64,000 nt of DNA from Bryoerythrophyllum caledonicum (lineage: Eukaryota > Streptophyta > Bryopsida > Pottiales > Pottiaceae), in contig OZ020525.1 in the NCBI GenBank assembly GCA_963971425.1, positions 3,393,560 through 3,457,559 on the forward strand. The letters run 5' to 3'. A model generated the notes under the pieces. That model saw only the letters and a list, made by a program, of their open reading frames with translations. It ran no database searches and had not been told where the DNA came from. The first letter of the stretch is position 1, and each line of letters opens with the position of its first letter. The position numbers and the translations under genes were made by a program. Of the stretch, positions 51,154 through 64,000 are shown piece by piece.

Positions 51154-52596
51154 GGGACAATTCACACTAGGACTGAGAGTTGAGAGGCCGAGTGCTACTA
51201 GTAATTTAATTGGTCTAGAGCCTAAGTATTGGCCTTGGTTGGCCTTTAGGCTTTCACATTAGGGACCAAGGTTGAGAAACGGACAACGTCTTGTATGCTT
51301 ACATGGCACGACTTTTTGAAGGTTTGGTGCCAAGAGTTTGGCTTCTAAAGGAAAGTTTAGGTTGAACAAGAACAGAACTCCAACCTCTTGCCAAGGTGCC
51401 AGATGTTTTTATCATTAACCCCTAAAGGACCAAGTGTCAAAAATGGGCTTTTGGAAAGTTTGGTCATGTTCCTATGGTGTCAATTTCCAACATTCCTCTT
51501 TGAAATTTTTACTGTAGAAGGCCATTACGAGGATTGCTATCTTGTGAGCGGTAAATGATGAGCCGTGAGCATTGAGCAATCAAATTTAGGGTTTAGGATT
51601 AAGGTTTTAGGGTTTAGGGTTTACATTTTACATTTTATGGTTTGGTAAGAGAGAACACTTTCATATTTTTTGAAAAAAAAAAATACATATTATTTTTCTC
51701 CTATTTTTTTACTCACCGCTCACCGCTCGTTGTTCACCGCTCACAAGATAGCATCGCTCATATTCTTTCCCTTCATTGTGTCAAAGAAGTTCTTCCCTTT
51801 AGTGAAAAATAGAATATTAACCCAAGTCAAACATTTTCACACATTGTCGGGCAAGGTAACAAAAAAACTCCTTCGTTTCCACATAAAACTTAGAGGTCTT
51901 TATATTTTTGAATTCTTATTTTTTCCACAACAATTTGTGGTGTAAACCTTATTTTTGACCATTGAAATTATCAATCTAAAACATATTAAGTACAGACAAA
52001 TTAAAACCTGAATTGGCAATTTTTGAACCTCTACTCCTTGCAAAGTTGTTTTGAACCTATAGTGCACTACAAAAATTTGACACTGTCACATTGAACATAG
52101 AACTTGTGCAGTGCAAAAATTTGACACCAAGTGAAGTCAAATTCTGCTGATCCACTCAATGTGGAGAAGGATATGAACCATTTGCATGACTTCAAACACT
52201 ATAATCTTTCAATCTGTGCGGTCAAAGTTGATGAAATTTTGTGAATATGTTACTTAATAAGTCTTATTTGGGATCCTATGGTCGAAACTACAACTATAAG
52301 TCCTAGTTTCCTTCTATATTCATTGCATTAGAATCCAACCAATTTTGAAGTGATTTTGGTGTGAAAATATTAGGGGTTAAAATATTCAATACCTGACAAG
52401 ATCTCCACCATGTTTACCTCAAATGTTTACCCAAATTTATTATTAACCAAATTAAAATTGATTACCTTGATGTTTTTACTTGAAATGTTACACCTAGATT
52501 TTTTATTAGATTAAACTTTCAACTCCAAAACTCGACCTCTTGGCATGGTTTGGTCTTTAACGGAGTTTGCTCTTTGGTCCAAGTGTGAATCGCCCC
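51154..52596. mobile_element. PIF/Harbinger-like element (G type), interrupted by family E
   Basis: GGGACAATTCACACTAGGACT at the left and TCCAAGTGTGAATCGCCCC at the right; GTA/ATA flanks. Inside GAGTTGAGAGGCCGAGTGC matches 33271-33854. The sequence stops at 51414 and resumes at 52381. Confidence 0.75.
51415..52380. mobile_element. TTAA-flanked element, family E (966 bp), nested
   Basis: TTAACCCCTAAAGGACCAAG at the left, AAAATATTAGGGGTTAA at the right. Host flanks ATCA|TTAA and TTAA|AATATTC...GACAAGATCTC match the empty paralog GTTCATTAAAATAC...GACAAGATCTC at 33517-33558, with one TTAA. Inside, a GGTTTAGGGTTTAG-type run (51580-51630) and TCACCGCTCACCGCTCGTTG tandem (51714-51745). Confidence 0.85.
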
Positions 52597-56926: not shown

Positions 56927-57202
56927 GGCCAGGGAGAATTGACCCCTTGCTTGTCCTTACCGGAGTGGGCCCGGTCTTAATTGCATGGGGTCGTTTTTCT
57001 GGCCCTCTTATTTTTGGAGGTCCGGAGGCTTTTTTTGGATTTTTGGGGACAAATTTGGGTCCTACGACCATTGTTTACCATTTGGTCTCCCCCTCGCCGT
57101 AAGTAGGGCCCCATCCAGAAACAAAATAGGGGCCAGGTTTGGCCCAACCATCTCGTGGCCCCCACGGGTAAGGACAAGCGAGGGGGTCAATTCTCCCTGG
57201 CC
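56927..57202. mobile_element. Mutator-like MITE, family H
   Basis: GGCCAGGGAGAATTGACCCC and GGGGTCAATTCTCCCTGGCC are perfect 20-bp TIRs. Flanks CCCCATGAT (56918-56926) and CCCCGTGAC (57203-57211) are a 9-bp duplication with two changes. Same family as 17586-17865. Confidence 0.85.
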
Positions 57203-57221
57203 CCCCGTGACCAACAGATTA

Positions 57222-57575: not shown

Positions 57576-57959
57576 TCATTGGGCATATAAGGAGAATCCA
57601 AATAATGATACATTTGTTTTTTAGTGATAGCCAATAGAATTATAAAACTCAGCTTAATTATGTGTGAATTTAGTTATGAATTTGTAAAGTTGAGATTGTA
57701 GTTCATCAAGATTTATTGAGTATCATACTTACAAAATTTCATAAACTTTACGGTACAGATTGAAGGATTATAGTGTTTGAAGTAGATAAAAGGGTTCATG
57801 TTTCTTCTGAAGTCAATAACTATCGACAAAATATACTATAACAAACATGAAGTTGATATTAGTCCATTTGAGTCTTCAAACCAAGTTGTAAATAGAGAGG
57901 TAAGCTGGGTACAGTTGAGCCCATCCTCAATTGCTTCCAACGCCATTTTTGTGGTCAGA
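57576..57959. other. Intergenic DNA with family E fragment
   Basis: 57720-57800 matches family E (CAGATTGAAGGATTATAGTG). This is also where the 3' LTR of the Ty3/gypsy element would be expected, but no partner copy is in the window to prove it. Confidence 0.4.
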
Positions 57960-58040
57960 TTCTATTTTCAACTTTGCAATACTCTGGATGATGGTATATT
58001 CTCACTACATCCATGTAATATATGATTACCTTGGTTTATT

Positions 58041-58175
58041 ACATCGTGGGCAACTCTAATCTCCTTTAGGAATTGTTGCGAGAGGAGGACGAAGACATGC
58101 CATATGCCAACCTCTCTGACATTGGTCGCATAACAACATAATTGTTGTGCCCTTGGATTTTCCACAAACAAAACA
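58041..58175 (-). pseudogene. PHD finger at the C-terminus of the retrotransposon integrase
   Basis: In one frame: CFVCGKSKG, MLLCDQCQRGWHMACLRPPL, ATIPKGD, stop (TAG where the family has Trp), SCPRC. All eight zinc ligands of the C4HC3 pattern are present (two CxxC pairs, GWH, MAC, CPRC) and the spacing suits a PHD finger, which in other proteins binds histone H3 tails. Here it sits where chromoviruses carry a chromodomain, so a targeting role is inferred. The stop at the Trp codon and the frame change upstream inactivate it. Confidence 0.85.
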
Positions 58176-58360
58176 TCTATATCTAGCTCCACCGCCATCT
58201 CTCGATGTATTGATCCTTCAATAGACAAATGACAAGGTGTACAATTCATAGTATTGTCCCTGCATTCTTGTCCATCTTTTTCTTCTACAAGAAGAATCCC
58301 ACTTAGCAAGATCTCTTTGACCCGCAAGATAGTTCTACCTGTCCAAACATCCAAGGTCAT
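58176..58360 (-). pseudogene. Post-integrase region leading to the PHD finger
   Basis: The frame starting at 58360 has TLDVWTGRTILRVKEILLSG, CRDNTMNCTPCHLSIEGSIH and REMAVELD. The first part resembles the beta-rich C-terminal integrase domain; the Cys-rich part has no family I can name. A one-base frame change then opens the PHD frame. Confidence 0.65.
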
Positions 58361-58619
58361 CGGTGCCTCACATTGTAAATATACGTAATCACCTACTTGA
58401 AAACATCAAAGTTGAGGTTCATAAGCCCCACTTCTAATACATGCATAATGCAACTTATGTCTATGTTGCGCTATTGCCAAGTTCTCCATAGCCATAGGCA
58501 TGGCCCTCTGAAAATACTCAACTCGATCTTGCAACCCTTATGCCCAAATTTTTGGATCATCAAAGTCCACAACAGGATATAGTTTCTTTCTTATTGCCAA
58601 AGGCAATACTGGCTCTTTG

Positions 58620-59424
58620 CTATAAGGACTTTTCATGCATATTTGTATAATCCAGGCTTGATTGTCTAAACCACTCTCTCTGCCAATCCATTTGCCTCTG
58701 GATGGTCTCTAGATGTTGTTCGATGATCAATCAGAGCTTTAGTGCAAAACTCTTCAAAAGATCCAAGGAACTCCATTCCTTGGTCTGTCAACACCTCTAC
58801 ATAGGCCCCAAACCTAGCTAGAACTCGGTCTAGGAAAAATGCCGCTGCTAGCTCAGAGGAATTTTGCGATAAAGTCACCAGCTCAATCCACTTACTGAAA
58901 TACTCTACAATAACAATTACATACTAAGCACCTCGTTTTGTGGTCATCAATGGCCCAACAAAATCGAGACTCCACCTATTGCCTAATCCCATAATTGGTA
59001 TTGGTTGTAGTTCGGGAGACAAGGTATTGAAGCTTGATCTAACCCAATCGCAAGCTTCACACCTCCCTACATAGGTTGCCACCTCCTATTGCATGCCCAT
59101 CCACCAATATTGACTACGCAACATTGAATTTGTACATCATACTCCAAATTGTTCCAAGCCTTCATACATTTGTTGTATCAACTGAAGACGTTGTTCTAGC
59201 CTAGGAACTATCCTCCGTGTTCCATCTTGCCATCTCTAAAAAATAAGTTCACCCTCGCAATGAAATCTAGCCGCTCTATGAGCTATCCGGTCTCTTGCTT
59301 GAGGTGTGGTGTTAGGCAAAAACTCGGCATGTTGTAGACAATACAAAATCCCTTGGTCTCGCCACACATCAGTGCTAATTATGGATCGTTTCTCATCTGA
59401 CTGCTCATCTTCAACATTTTTCAA
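58620..59424 (-). pseudogene. Integrase domain of the Ty3/gypsy element
   Basis: Broken frames give an N-terminal zinc-binding region (MLRSQYWWMGM, GRCEACDWVR with the CxxC pair near 59060), the first catalytic Asp in WSLDFVGP (58965-58963), the second in LTDQGMEF (58785-58783) and the Glu in GLAERV (58680-58678), 35 residues on. Acts to insert the cDNA into the genome. DDE residues are kept, but stops interrupt the domain (for example near 59230 and 58918). Confidence 0.88.
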
Positions 59425-59517
59425 AGCTTCTACAATGACCTAGCCGGATTTTCCTTCCATCCAAGCCAAATAAGCCGAAGCATGCCAACATGGCACTATC
59501 TCTTGGTCAGAAGTACC

Positions 59518-60060
59518 CTACCACCTAGCACCGGTAAAGTCCTCTTGCAACAGGCTTGAATTGTGGCTTAAGCCATCAACATTCAAGTTTTGCAATCCCG
59601 CCTTGTGGAATACTTCAAAATCATATTCTTGTAATAGCAAGGCCCATCTAGCCAACTTTCCCGTGAGTTTATCAGATTCCATCAACCATTTTAAAGGTTT
59701 ATGATCTGTCACAAGGGTAAAACTCGGGCCGTAGAGATATGGGCAGAAGTGGAAAACTGCCGACACAATTGCTAAGCACTCTCCTTCATATGAAGAATAC
59801 TTGGCCTTTGCATCATTGTTGCTTCGTGAAGCGTACCCAATGACATACTCTTTGCCATCATCATCTTTTTGAATCAACACGGCACCAATTTCTAACATAC
59901 TCCAATCTATGTGGAGCGGGAAAGGCCGTTGAGCATCGGGCCGCCTCAGCACTAGAGCTGAACGAAGTGCTCCCTTTAAAGCCTCAAATGCATTCTCTTT
60001 ATTATGATCCCATATCAATTTTTTATCAGTTCGAGTCAATTGGGTCAAAGGTTTGGCCAA
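59518..60060 (-). pseudogene. RNase H domain of the Ty3/gypsy element
   Basis: One open frame of 180 residues, the best preserved part. It starts with KPLTQLTRTDKKLIWD, a typical RT-RNase H junction, then the acidic residues in PLHIDWS, SSYEGECLA and LVTDHKPLKWLM, and the end LARWALLLQEYDFEV and LNVDGLSHN. Removes RNA from RNA:DNA hybrids during reverse transcription. Intact reading frame but in a broken polyprotein. Confidence 0.9.
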
Positions 60061-60119
60061 GAGACTAAATCCACAAAAATAATTGCCAATATTAGTTAGC
60101 TAGTCCCATAAATGCTCTC

Positions 60120-61044
60120 AACCTTAAATCTCTAAGAATAAGATCCTATTTAAAGCTTCCACCTTTGCTTGTTGTACACCTAATCCTCCTGGCGTGATTA
60201 CATGGCCTAAATAAGGTAATTGATCATGAAAGAATTTATACTTTTGATGATCCAAGCAAAGACCCCATTGTTACAGCCTTTCAAATACTTGGTGCAAATA
60301 TTTTACATGCTCTTGTGGTGTATCACAAAAGATAATAACATCATCCAATTAACACCGAGCAAATGACAAATCCTTGAAGACTTGATCCATCACACGTTGA
60401 AATTCCACTGGAGCATTCTTCAATCCAAAAGGTAAGAATTTCTAATGGAAGATCATTTCTCTTCCATCATCATCTACTCCTCAAAATGTTGTTTTCACCC
60501 GATCTTCTTTTCTCAATGGCAATTGGTGGTATGTTGACCTCAAGTCCAAAGTATTAAAGACTCTTGTTTTTCTAACCGCATCAAATAACTCCTGAGGTGT
60601 AGGCATGCGGTAGCGATCCGATTTGATCCTCTTGTTAATTGGCCAATAATCACCGCAGATACACTTCTCCATCCAATTTTTAAAAATAACCTTCTTTGCT
60701 GGCATGATTGTTGCACATGCATATTCATCATTTCAGAGCTCCACCAAATTTGCATCAAACAATTCCTTGCATCGTTGTTTGACCTCATCTCTTTCAGAAA
60801 TACTCAACTTGTACAGACGTCTAAATATTGGATGATTGTCCTCTAATTGTATCATAACCGGCTTGCCCTTATAGCCCTCTAAATGAGTGAGCTTGAAAGC
60901 AAAGCAGGCCTTATACGAGCAAATAAAAGCTCGCACCTTCTGTGCCTCTACACCTGTGAGACCCATTCCTATGTCCATCTCCCACTCCTTCTCAACTGGC
61001 AAGATTACATGATTTTCTAATGACTCTAATAGAGGTGTTGGCAC
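60120..61044 (-). pseudogene. Reverse transcriptase domain of the Ty3/gypsy element
   Basis: The frame 61044-60733 carries the region upstream of RT (GYKGKPVMIQLEDNHPIFRR, then ERDEVKQRCKELFDANLVEL). The frame 60705-60481 has CGDYWPINK, DRYRMPTPQELFD and FNTLDLRSTYHQLPLR, the fingers/palm motifs of Ty3/gypsy RT with the first catalytic Asp (TLDLRS). Near 60335-60350 the catalytic YIDD box reads stop-LDD followed by VIIF. Connection sequence (FHDQLPYLGHVI) follows near 60225. Several stops; inactive. Confidence 0.88.
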
Positions 61045-61105
61045 TCCTTCTAGTTGCTAGTTGGATGAAGATGCACCATTGCCTTTTCCAAGGCAGTAGA
61101 TGCTA

Positions 61106-61436
61106 TTATTTGATCATGAATATGAGCAAAGGAGGTACTTTCTTTACTAAAAATACCTTCTTAAAAACTTCCTTAGCATTCCCCTTATCTAATTCTTGGG
61201 CCAATGACGCAAAAATCCTTTGACCTCGTAGTTCATCTTCTAATACCCATTCAAATGCACCTCCATCCGGCGTCTTCATTCCCCTAACTGTTGTATCCCA
61301 AACTTGCTTACTCTCCAGCCACACCTTGACATGTGAATGAGTGTGCTTTGAAATATCATTCAACCTTGTGCCCCTTGGCTTGAAGACTCTACTTCCAGAT
61401 GTCCATCCAAGCCACCATTTTGATGCACTTGAGCTG
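61106..61436 (-). pseudogene. Linker between methyltransferase and reverse transcriptase
   Basis: Open in one frame down to 61106, Trp/Ser/Lys-rich (KWWLGWTSGSRVF, VKVWLESKQVWDT, FEWVLEDELRGQR). No family recognised; the position suggests the spacer before RT or a remnant of another pol segment. Confidence 0.5.
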
Positions 61437-62553
61437 CTAGACAAACCCCGAGAACCAAGCCATGAAGTATAAATCCATGGCTTGTCCAAAGATGTGGCGG
61501 CGTTGAGACTCAATAAATCCATGTCCAACCGTTGTACTTGTCAGAAAGTCCATGGCTCTATCCCGTTCATCAACACAAGACTCACGAAGACTTTGTATGC
61601 TAATATCAAATGCTAAGCCTCGTCCTTCTTCACAAAATGCGGAAGATCGAGGATGACTCATGAATGTAGGGGAAGCCAGACGATGCTCTCCTACATTATT
61701 TATCAAGGCAAATGGGGTTGAATCTGCCTGCATCACTTCTTGTGAATAGCAACCAACATCTAAAATTTAATCAACATGCCTCCCTTGTAGAGTTGCAAGA
61801 TGCCCCAATGCTATTGAAATACATGGTGCGGAAGCCAAGTTTGTCCATTTCACCGCAGCTGATGTGCATAAGAACCAAGAGCTGTTGCATCCACTAGTAC
61901 TAGTTCTCCAAGGTGCAAGCACACTTCTACTGCAACATTTTGCAATTGTGCATTGACCACCCCTAGTGGTGGCTCATTGTCAAAGATATAGGCTACAAGA
62001 GTAGCTTGAAGGTGTTGCCATGACTTCAATAAACGCAATAGTTTCCAGATCGGGGATCTTGGAGGCTTTGACCTGGCCCAGATTGGGAATGCCCTTGATA
62101 AGGCCATCCAACCATCACATGGTCCACTCTTCTTAACCTTTGAAGATCCTCTTGGCCAATCAAAGCAATGTCCAATGGTAAACGTGACATACAACCTTGT
62201 ATTTCACTTGCGGATAATTGCGTTGGATATCTCATATGCAATTGTTGAAGATGATGCTTTGTTGCTATACTAACAATGGCGTTATTATCCACGTATATAT
62301 AACTTTGTATAGATAATCCAGCTTCTGCGAACCTTGTACCAAGTCTTGCAAATAATCCTACAAGCACTATGTCGCCAATATCCTTGCGAAGCTCCGCATG
62401 CTTTGCAAGGGAGACCCTGTATTTCAACTTCCAAAGGTGTTGATCAATATTTTTTACCAATTTGTGGCATCGATCCATCAAGTCTTTAGATGAAGTCCAT
62501 GGTGGCGTTGGATCCTTTGGATGCCTAACAAACTTGCCCAATTGAGTTAGCAC
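61437..62553 (-). pseudogene. C5 cytosine DNA methyltransferase domain inside the retrotransposon (decayed)
   Basis: Would transfer methyl from S-adenosylmethionine to cytosine C5. Three successive frames cover it. Frame 1 (62553-62026): motif I region IVLVGLFARLGT (family FxGxG altered), YVDNNA, and motif IV VGWPYQGHSQSG followed by LQDPRS; the catalytic Cys of PCQ is Tyr (TAT, 62100-62098). Frame 2 (about 62050-61850): AYIFDNEPPLG, a changed motif VI (family ENV), then motif VIII-like HQLR. Frame 3 (about 61848-61437): WTNLA, HPRSSAF, DERDRAMDF and RRHIFGQAMDL, matching motifs IX-X. About 355 residues, the size of a catalytic domain only. It lies between protease and RT in the same direction, so it was part of the element's polyprotein, not a host gene. 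Confidence 0.87.
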
Positions 62554-62554
62554 T

Positions 62555-63227
62555 TACATGTCTGATTGTGGAGATGAATCCAATGAAGACATATTCCCTT
62601 GAAGTAGCAAATCACTAGATGCAAACCACTCGGCAATACATCCATACATAGCTACTTGTCCCTATACTAGGTCTGCACTTGCAACAAAGGTGACAGGAAG
62701 TATTTCTTTCTTTCCATCTCCTTGAGACCAACCTGGTCTAAACCATGCCACCTCACTTCAACAATCCTAACCAAAACCAATGGGGTACAATGTTTATTAC
62801 TCTAAAAGTATATCATAAGTGGTAGACCCGTGATCACACATCTTATAGACATGTGAGTATAATATGCATCGTTGCCCACCTTGAATTGGAGCCTTAAGGG
62901 TTCTTTTGTAAGCCTTCTTGAATGTTTCGTACCCGTAACAGATGTTGCAATTGTAAAAGGGCATAGATCAAGGTCTTCTGCCTTAATATCCAGGCTTTTG
63001 ACTAGGTTCTTCCCCACTATAATCAATTGAGCCCTTGTATCAAGCAAAATCTTAAGGGTAGTAGGGTTGCTTATCTGGCTGTGTACGTACCTGATGCTCG
63101 TTCGGTGTCTTGAGGTCTTGTCTACTTGCTGTTGATGTGCTTGGTGTTGTGAATTGTGTTGTCGTTGTGGTGGTCGCATTGTGGAGCTTTTCAAGGTGTG
63201 GGGTCTAGGGGCTTGAACTTCCATCAT
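62555..63227 (-). pseudogene. Retropepsin-like protease region and linker of the Ty3/gypsy element
   Basis: The frame 63227-62802 has ILLDTRAQLIIVGKNLV, the aspartic protease active-site motif with Gly of DTGA changed to Arg (DTRA), then a retropepsin-like domain with RLQFKVG. A following stretch (62760-62560) continues in broken frames with EVAWFRPGW and MYGCIAEWFASSDLL, leading into the methyltransferase. The upstream segment is Gln/His/Arg-rich, like a nucleocapsid-protease linker. The changed active-site loop and the frame breaks make it non-functional. Confidence 0.75.
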
Positions 63228-63300
63228 TGCTAAATATGGTGGATTTTTGAGTTTTTGTTGATGTTCCTCCTTTCAGCTCTTGCTTGCTATGTCGTCGGAC

Positions 63301-64000
63301 TTCTTTGTTGATTGCTCCTTGGCGGTAGAGTTTGCAGTCTTTTCTGGTGATATGAGATTGGAAGCAAATGATGGTTAGGTGATCTTGGCATATTGACGTT
63401 GGTGTGGTGTTGATGGCGCAGCTCTCTTTGGACTATGTGATGAAATCCAGGCGACCTTCCATGGGTGGTGTCGCTCCATACAATGTCGCTTGTATACTTG
63501 TGCGGATCTACCTATGTTGTAGTTGCTTTGTGGCCTCTTGTGATGGGGGTTAGGCATGAGTATTACAACAACAACAGTCACTAGAGTATTTCTACGATGT
63601 TTGTAAAAGCAAATTGAAACATTTCAAGGTACAGAATACGCATGTGTAACTTAGCTAGACTTGGAGGATGTTGGTCCTTTTGAGCAAATCTTGCATCTTG
63701 GCGTTGGTCTTGTTTGTCCCTGGTATGGGCAGGGATCGATCTTCATGTACATGTGCTTGTGTCCTAGTTGAGGAGGTGATAGGTGTGGTGTTTCTAGTTG
63801 TGGTATAATATCCAGATTTAGATCTATATGTGCATGCTTGACATGGATAGTGCAAGATCTAGAGCTAGATGTGGGCCAACACAGAGCCCCCACTTGAGAT
63901 CTACTCTCCCAAACTAGCGCTAGATCTTTGCAACCCATACCAACTTGTGACAATAGATCAAGAACTTGCAATCCCTTCCAACACTCTACACATCATGGAA
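63301..64000 (-). other. Upstream part of the retrotransposon, gag not readable
   Basis: Fragmented minus-strand frames (63375-63581, 63651-63971) show no capsid motif or clear CCHC zinc knuckle. Probably degenerate gag or leader sequence of the same element. Confidence 0.35.

Follow-up and report, generated by a model that had tools for sequence, protein, structure and literature searches.

The 64,000-nucleotide stretch analyzed here (the window) covers positions 3,393,560 to 3,457,559 of contig OZ020525.1 of the bryophyte Bryoerythrophyllum caledonicum (C14 in our numbering; the host assembly, GCA_963971425.1, is 437 Mb in 894 contigs). Its minus strand carries a decayed Ty3-type retroelement belonging to a lineage that, from its many copies, has a C5-cytosine DNA methyltransferase (DNMT) and a PHD finger at fixed places. 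Searching the window by tblastn with domains of longer copies from the same genome identified protease (PR), DNMT, reverse transcriptase (RT), RNase H (RH), DDE integrase (INT), and PHD finger in that order, with best E-values, domain by domain, of 8e-21 to 3e-98, and the reversed window gave zero tblastn matches at E 1e-3. This domain set and its single-strand order had been claimed in an earlier note on this DNA, and both are borne out, as are the coordinates it gave for the coding part (57960-63300). It drew the element too small, since similarity extends down to 57804 and the 5′ repeat, A1, lies outside the window, at window coordinates 64887-64502. Pfam calls RNase H, rve, and PHD over their cut-offs in window pieces, finds the protease under its cut-off, and does not call the DNMT.

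The window copy is, judging by its sequence, an old, dead member of a multi-family host lineage. The catalytic PCQ of the DNMT is now PYQ (GWPYQG, where other copies have GWPCQG), its ENV reads DNE, and there are numerous stops and frame breaks, with eight in-frame stops in the stretch holding TAG-CAA-CTA. A blastn comparison with the related copies L030 and L031 gave no match from 64170 to 63053, which means that gag has for the most part been lost or has diverged. Blastn with the L030 3′ end detected no B1-A2-B2, the 3′ repeat block, anywhere in the window.

The pairing recurs in this genome. With 57960-63300 as query, 63 matching pieces were obtained, which, the window aside, are 82-89% identical (31 of 1479 candidates scored). 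Of the window-family copies other than the window itself, 22 span the DNMT stretch; in 21 the PHD stretch follows in order, one of these (on contig C6) having ~11 kb between its parts, and the remaining copy, C4:29811703, has no PHD piece. Genome searches gave lower bounds of at least 123 matches for PF00145 (of 1054 candidates), at least 150 for PF00628 (of 1526), and at least 150 for RT (of 4219). We inspected the expected DNMT and PHD sites at every 15th of 150 RT matches (n = 10); DNMT is present in all ten, in seven over 322-324 amino acids (aa) and in three partially, over 128-189 aa, and PHD in nine, with that of the tenth possibly shifted. For ranks 70 and 85 of this sample the PHD slice was enlarged after the PF00628 results were known, and because all 150 RT matches are 81-100% like the query, the sample is representative of these families only. 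In a set of 18 loci of 10 kb chosen by their DNMT, mostly with long frames (L026 and L027 are not DNMT loci), CCHC, protease, and DNMT are present in 18/18, PHD is in place in 17/18, and the set is complete in 16/18, the incomplete loci being L016, without RT, and L019, cut in RNase H. The earlier note had named two outcomes that would count against a lineage of this kind, namely absence of the two domains from sibling copies and a separate, later-inserted DNMT. Neither came true, as the RT sample keeps both domains and the DNMT occupies the same position behind the protease in all 18 loci; many copies, some long open frames, and the purifying selection between sub-families described below agree with the existence of such a lineage.

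Table 1. Parts of the retroelement copy within the window
Feature	Window position	Strand	Evidence
Retroelement part inside window	57804..64000	-	blastn vs copies L030, L031
Aspartic protease, DTRAQL at 63041-63024	62826..63062	-	tblastn 6e-22; Pfam under cut-off
C5-DNMT, N-terminal part	62035..62370	-	tblastn 4e-30
DNMT motif I relic, ARLGTRFAEAG	62349-62317	-	inside N-terminal DNMT part
DNMT motif IV relic, GWPYQG, catalytic Cys gone	62109-62092	-	
C5-DNMT, C-terminal part	61443..62122	-	tblastn 5e-36 jointly, 62122-61853 + 61847-61443
DNMT ENV relic, IFDNEPP	61987-61967	-	C-terminal DNMT part
DNMT motif IX/X relic, ESQRRHIFGQA	61511-61479	-	C-terminal DNMT part
In-frame TAG-CAA-CTA, relic of stop between Gag-PR-DNMT and RT-RH-INT-PHD frames	61051..61059	-	
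Reverse transcriptase, TLDLRS at 60552, LDD at 60348	60184..60813	-	tblastn 3e-98
RNase H	59560..59928	-	PF17917 2e-34; tblastn 1e-61
DDE integrase core	58648..59004	-	PF00665 1.3e-10; tblastn 1e-61
C-terminal C4HC3 PHD finger	58035..58175	-	PF00628 2.7e-9; tblastn 8e-21

Families A (with its sister A′), B, and C, the window family, share one coding plan. Where unbroken, open reading frame (ORF) 1 is ~1350-1370 aa and codes for Gag with two CCHC knuckles, protease, and DNMT, and ORF2 is 1041-1047 aa and codes for RT, RNase H, DDE integrase, and PHD finger. ORF2 of L023 has the Pfam families RVT_1, RT_RNaseH, Integrase_H2C2, and rve; at E 0.001, Pfam found no chromodomain in this ORF2 and no recombinase family in either L023 frame. 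Family A has an additional first frame, ORF0, of 216-223 aa (762-1409 in L011 and 803-1471 in L009), which has no Pfam match and is constrained as coding sequence, with 0.67-0.72 aa identity and saturated synonymous divergence (dS) in its own frame and ratios of 1.0-2.0 in the other two. ORF1 and ORF2 share a single frame and are split by UAG followed by CAR-YYA in 22 of 24 loci, a count that omits L002, L005, and L016, where the RT or DNMT end is missing or partial. The codons after the UAG are CAA-CCA in A, CAA-TCA in B, and CAA-CTA in C; L017, in which this stretch is shortened, and L024 lack a stop at the junction, and four loci have further stops. The DNMT lies upstream of this stop, in the Gag-PR frame. 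We take UAG-CAR-YYA to be the readthrough context of tobacco mosaic virus (TMV), and the stop context thus matches a TMV-type motif at which readthrough is putative.

Relatives were found well beyond this genome, with 33 proteins returned by a DNMT query, 286 by an INT-PHD query (120 of them listed), and 118 by a DNMT profile. DNMT-query relatives include Marchantia polymorpha and Closterium, and INT-PHD relatives among the matches listed are from Marchantia, Haematococcus, Chromochloris, Tetrabaena, and Volvox reticuliferus; by iterated profiles, the Marchantia, Tetrabaena, and Volvox rows contain DNMT stretches too, and the Haematococcus and Chromochloris rows do not. With the profile, DNMT proteins of 281-529 aa from Sphagnum troendelagicum and Calypogeia fissa were also recovered, read as proteins alone. 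No protein named as a cellular DNMT3 is among the DNMT-profile matches, where P0269 (E 1.4e-7) is named DNMT1, and none named Klebsormidium is among the matches listed in the three protein searches; viral contigs searched with ORF2 gave six pattern matches, none related. Iterated profiles scored on 153 proteins (the 33 DNMT-query and 120 listed INT-PHD matches) gave the orders RT-RH-DNMT-INT-PHD in 21, DNMT-RT-RH-INT-PHD in three, DNMT-INT-PHD in 21, and CCHC-PR-DNMT in 21, a sister group having its DNMT placed between RNase H and integrase. Stored Pfam annotation joins PF00145 with PHD in 10 of the 120 listed INT-PHD rows, and iterated profiles find no PHD in the three Closterium rows that reach the integrase. 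In a DNMT tree of 58 rows, the 27 with DNMT before RT form one clade (support 100/97), and an RT+INT tree of 45 rows has an agreeing clade of 25 (100/100), within which DNMT before RT is visible in seven, the other 18 being proteins where the DNMT is unseen. Both trees are midpoint-rooted and exclude DNMT stretches shorter than 270 aa as well as rows in which RT and INT are not both present. A 2019 opinion paper states that land plants, for example tracheophytes, have no methylase-encoding transposons (PMC6338049); the bryophyte relatives here fall outside that tracheophyte example.

The DNMT has what we take to be motifs I, IV, VI, VIII, IX, and X in that order, with no DRM-type rearrangement. 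The catalytic Cys, the E and N of ENV, and the RxR residues are kept in 27/27 rows of the DNMT-before-RT clade, and the catalytic Cys in 31 of 34 sister-type rows. An AlphaFold model of the domain has a pLDDT (predicted local distance difference test) of 92.5, and the best 50 of its 1096 fold matches are all DNMT3-family entries; identity to DNMT3A/DNMT3B entries is ~20-22%, and DNMT3B is the nearest solved relative by sequence. By motifs and model, then, the element enzyme is a DNMT3-type cytosine methyltransferase with predicted activity. Of 123 aligned PHDs, 122-123 retain the C4HC3 zinc ligands. Its best sequence matches are CHD4 and PHF12, followed by DPF2, UHRF1, BHC80, KDM5, and ATXR5 among others. 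Among fold matches PHF1 leads loosely, and the UHRF1, BAZ2, ATXR5, and BHC80 fingers fit tightly, several of the tight matches being structures solved with unmodified H3. A Gly is present in 118/123 PHDs at what is presumably the position of the cage Trp in H3K4me3 readers. By likeness to such fingers, the ligand should be the H3 tail without K4 methylation.

Ratios of nonsynonymous to synonymous divergence (dN/dS) in four A versus A′ pairs are 0.04 for DNMT, 0.05-0.10 for PHD, 0.07-0.10 for protease, 0.02-0.03 for RT, and 0.01-0.03 for INT, supporting purifying selection on DNMT and PHD between the sister sub-families. Between the old family-C copies L030 and L031, the ratios are 0.98 for DNMT and 1.06 for PHD. 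Comparisons within sub-families involve small counts and give uneven ratios; L023-L025 gives 0.19 for DNMT and 0.06 for PHD. When A is compared with B, almost every domain has reached dS saturation, and between A and A′ dS varies along the element (ORF0 saturated, Gag part 3.1, PR 0.7-0.9, DNMT 1.6-1.8, RT 0.9-1.0, RNase H 1.3-1.6, INT ~0.6), perhaps from recombination.

C>T changes in the window copy have rates of 0.241 for CG (49/203), 0.227 for CHG (58/255), and 0.109 for CHH (192/1768), higher than the A/T transitions at 0.043 (121/2804), a pattern as from methylated cytosine in plant contexts. From DNMT to INT, sub-family A (L010-L014, L017, and L018) has observed/expected ratios of 0.50-0.55 for CpG and 1.02-1.09 for CWG, and A′ (L009, L015, L020, L021, L024, and L028) has 0.81-0.85 and 0.48-0.50, respectively. 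The polarity of C>T changes in four pairs backs the CpG side (17-19% vs 7-9%) and to a lesser degree the CHG side (15-16% vs 11-14%), with CHH at 10-12%. These opposite depletions look as if the enzymes or hosts of the two sub-families marked different contexts.

Recurrence of DNMT and PHD at the same place had been expected in elements with paired long terminal repeats (LTRs); the recurrence stands, and in place of paired LTRs the ends are split direct repeats, with A1 at the 5′ end and B1-A2-B2 at the 3′ end after a G-rich tract. All three families, A, B, and C, have this layout: L011, L023, and L031 show split repeats, and L030 shows B1-A2-B2. The B1-A2 junction is ACGACA-GC-TGTC in A, A′, B, and the family-C copy L030, and ACGACA-AC-TGTT in L031; the termini are TGTC...GACA (the L016 start is TGTG). 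Target-site duplications (TSDs) of 4 bp flank 11/11 scorable copies of 14 tried, L013 and L030 being unscorable for want of an A1 in the pieces examined and L015 for having no A2. L023 is inserted in another, A-like element, and its flanks minus one duplication restore the interrupted RT/RNase H gene. From the TSDs and this clean empty site, the DDE integrase appears to insert a split-repeat molecule. We infer that opening a two-LTR circle where B meets A would yield this layout; the GC that separates CA from TG resembles end bases left untrimmed at the junction of such a circle. A candidate LTR pair at window 56927-57204 and C14:3460773-3461046 was rejected as a repeat resembling miniature inverted-repeat transposable elements, which has ~30-bp inverted ends and flanks the element on both sides, 81% alike.

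Several known systems share parts of this plan. Like Ty3/Gypsy elements, those here have the PR-RT-RH-INT order, a DDE integrase, TG...CA ends, and a short TSD, with the DNMT between PR and RT; unlike them, they end in A1 and B2 of split repeats rather than in two direct LTRs. DIRS elements use a tyrosine recombinase and make no TSD, and the DDE integrase and 4-bp TSD set our elements apart from DIRS/PAT. REM1, a Chlamydomonas Ty3 element with a PHD finger, is likewise of the green lineage; its PHD and chromodomain are encoded by a separate ORF in inverse orientation, and it is not known to carry a DNMT. The catalytic fold and motifs are like those of DNMT3A/DNMT3B. DNMT3 couples its enzyme with an ADD domain that reads H3K4me0, whereas reader and writer are here on two parts of a polyprotein.

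The accessible passages of PMC2774666 describe REM1 as having a reversed, truncated INT with GPY/F and chromodomain, and name no PHD. As in chromoviruses, a chromatin-reading domain is at the integrase C-terminus (PMC2774666), but here PHD replaces the chromodomain, and split repeats and a DNMT are present. Split direct repeats A1-B1-A2-B2 are shared with DIRS/PAT and SymbioDIRS-Dnmt3, some of which carry methyltransferases (PMC5890265). The closest system is KnitGypsy-Dnmt3 of Klebsormidium nitens, described in 2018 as a Gypsy element with a Dnmt3-class DNMT and DIRS-like repeats; by that description it also shares Gypsy domains and a non-rearranged DNMT under purifying selection with our elements, but has its DNMT in the Pol ORF rather than in the Gag-PR frame before a stop (PMC5890265). 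In the text available from that paper, figures aside, neither PHD nor readthrough occurs. The earlier note knew of no description of the pairing; a Gypsy element that has DIRS-like repeats and carries a DNMT was published in 2018, and a DNMT together with a PHD in one element was not found in the open-licence literature, outside which most subscription papers lie. Nor did we meet UAG-CAR-YYA readthrough in such elements in that literature, no search having been aimed at readthrough.

The following roles of DNMT and PHD in the element are inferred from sequence. We predict that most ribosomes would stop at the UAG to give Gag-PR-DNMT and that a few would read through, TMV-fashion, to give the full protein. 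The DNMT would thus be produced in step with Gag and enter the particle together with the RNA and RT, and could methylate new cDNA, or chromatin at the insertion site, at once. The PHD finger occupies what would be the spot of the chromodomain on chromovirus integrases and, by binding an H3 tail without K4 methylation, would steer integration to silent chromatin; with writer and reader together, a new copy would resemble host DNA already silenced. Self-methylation of cDNA, and also restraint, have been proposed by de Mendoza et al. 2018 (PMC5890265). Taken together, the lineage plan read from the copies and a mechanism with Gag-level DNMT and PHD steering seem to us fairly probable. For the integrase, the substrate would be a molecule with TG...CA ends in which arms B and A had earlier been contiguous (the B1-GC-A2 palindrome), like a two-LTR circle that was opened elsewhere. 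More tentative, and doubtful as a whole, is an extension in which, across a widespread green-lineage clade, a Gag-packaged DNMT3 methylates the incoming copy, the integrase PHD selects H3K4-unmethylated chromatin, the DDE integrase inserts a DIRS-like permuted molecule (an opened two-LTR circle with an inherited B1-GC-A2 junction), and sub-families use different methylation contexts.

Several observations weigh against these proposals. Readthrough is not universal, because the related proteins P0049, P0052, and P0114 have DNMT through PHD in one frame and L024 is free of the stop. Constraint is less clear within sub-families, with dN/dS for L009-L020 of 0.14 (DNMT), 0.38 (RT), and 0.30 (PHD), and for L022-L023 of 0.17 (DNMT), 1.98 (RNase H), and 0.89 (PHD). 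The host may have caused the CG/CHG deamination. The model of the C-terminal part is weaker (pLDDT 78.5; predicted template modeling score, pTM, 0.38), the top PHD fold matches, to PHF1, span 126-134 columns with a root-mean-square deviation near 12, and the H3 ligand is predicted by likeness. There is no TGG-type tRNA primer site directly after A1 in L011 (CTTGAGAAAG), L023 (ACTTGACAAAG), or L031 (CTTGACAAGA), which leaves reverse transcription of the split-repeat layout unexplained. Nesting in or beside relatives occurs in 2/13 copies and 3/21 flanks (control, 0/114 window pieces), and these counts are no proof of targeting. The Klebsormidium Gypsy DNMT showed no activity in a 2018 yeast test, judged inconclusive by its authors (PMC5890265).

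That DNMT and PHD are chance neighbors, a separate gene or a later insert beside a Ty3 pol, might be suspected from the window copy, whose DNMT alone is too decayed for Pfam. We give this practically no credence: the order is identical in sampled copies, and the RT-sampled copies keep both domains, refuting it in these families; protease and DNMT share one open frame in several copies; selection between sub-families is purifying; and the pairing also occurs in proteins of other records, with DNMT and RT+INT trees that agree. Scarcely more credible is that these are ordinary LTR elements whose split repeats are an artifact of assembly or nesting. Nested copies do exist, but one layout is found in families A, B, and C, the 4-bp duplications match in 11/11 copies, the empty site is clean, and the figure legend for KnitGypsy-Dnmt3 states the same layout (PMC5890265). 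The two positions of the DNMT, before RT and between RNase H and integrase, could reflect two captures in an older PHD-bearing Ty3 lineage, and the DNMT-before-RT rows do form one clade in both trees with the other rows outside. The DNMTs at the other position nevertheless keep the same motifs, two of them sharing 37 and 41% identity with the L023 DNMT, and as the tree has no cellular DNMT3, one capture followed by a move is as likely as two; we regard two captures as quite possible, if somewhat short of probable.

Other functions for the enzyme have also to be considered. A role in self-restraint, in which the DNMT contributes to the silencing of new copies and thereby to host survival while the PHD does no more than tether the integrase, would fit the CG/CHG deamination signature of old copies and is discussed by de Mendoza et al. 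2018 (PMC5890265). We consider it unlikely, on the argument that within-cell selection for self-silencing is weak, whereas constraint on the DNMT is close to that on the protease; this is not decisive. The methyltransferase fold could instead be kept for nucleic-acid binding, particle assembly, or RNA methylation and not for DNA catalysis, as its location in these families in the Gag frame, ahead of the stop, and the lack of the catalytic Cys in 3/34 sister-type rows might suggest, but Cys, ENV, and RxR are kept in 27/27 clade rows and the fold is DNMT3-like, making such a role distinctly improbable.

Elsewhere in the window are a probable host gene with F-box and Kelch motifs (3455-2440, minus strand), a short array of TTTAGGG, the plant-type telomere unit (51585-51630), and inverted arms at 52173-52265 and 57708-57799, 5.4-5.5 kb apart and one of them near the 3′ break of the element at 57804, which are perhaps another transposon. 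L001 (G000:C14:16014858-16018817), a 370-aa cytosine methyltransferase frame in DNA of 63% GC on a chromosome-size contig, was set aside as outside the lineage and looks like contamination or transfer. Contigs G000:C894 and G000:C821 are plastid-like with full psaA/psaB-type frames and are ~92% alike over 900 bases; one of them may come from a second plant in the sampled material or be a further copy. Two plastid psaB stretches match entries 7ksq, 6l35, and 8htu best, which are from Physcomitrium, so that by sequence the host is probably a moss.

Two consequences follow for the biology of these elements. The combination of DDE integrase, TSD, and split direct repeats breaks the textbook tie of split repeats to tyrosine recombinases. 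Furthermore, hosts silence transposons by DNA methylation, and an element that keeps both a methyltransferase and a reader therefore raises the question of whether silencing is in the element's own interest. In this plant the question would be testable, with long-frame copies, sister sub-families with different depleted contexts, and relatives that have the DNMT elsewhere.

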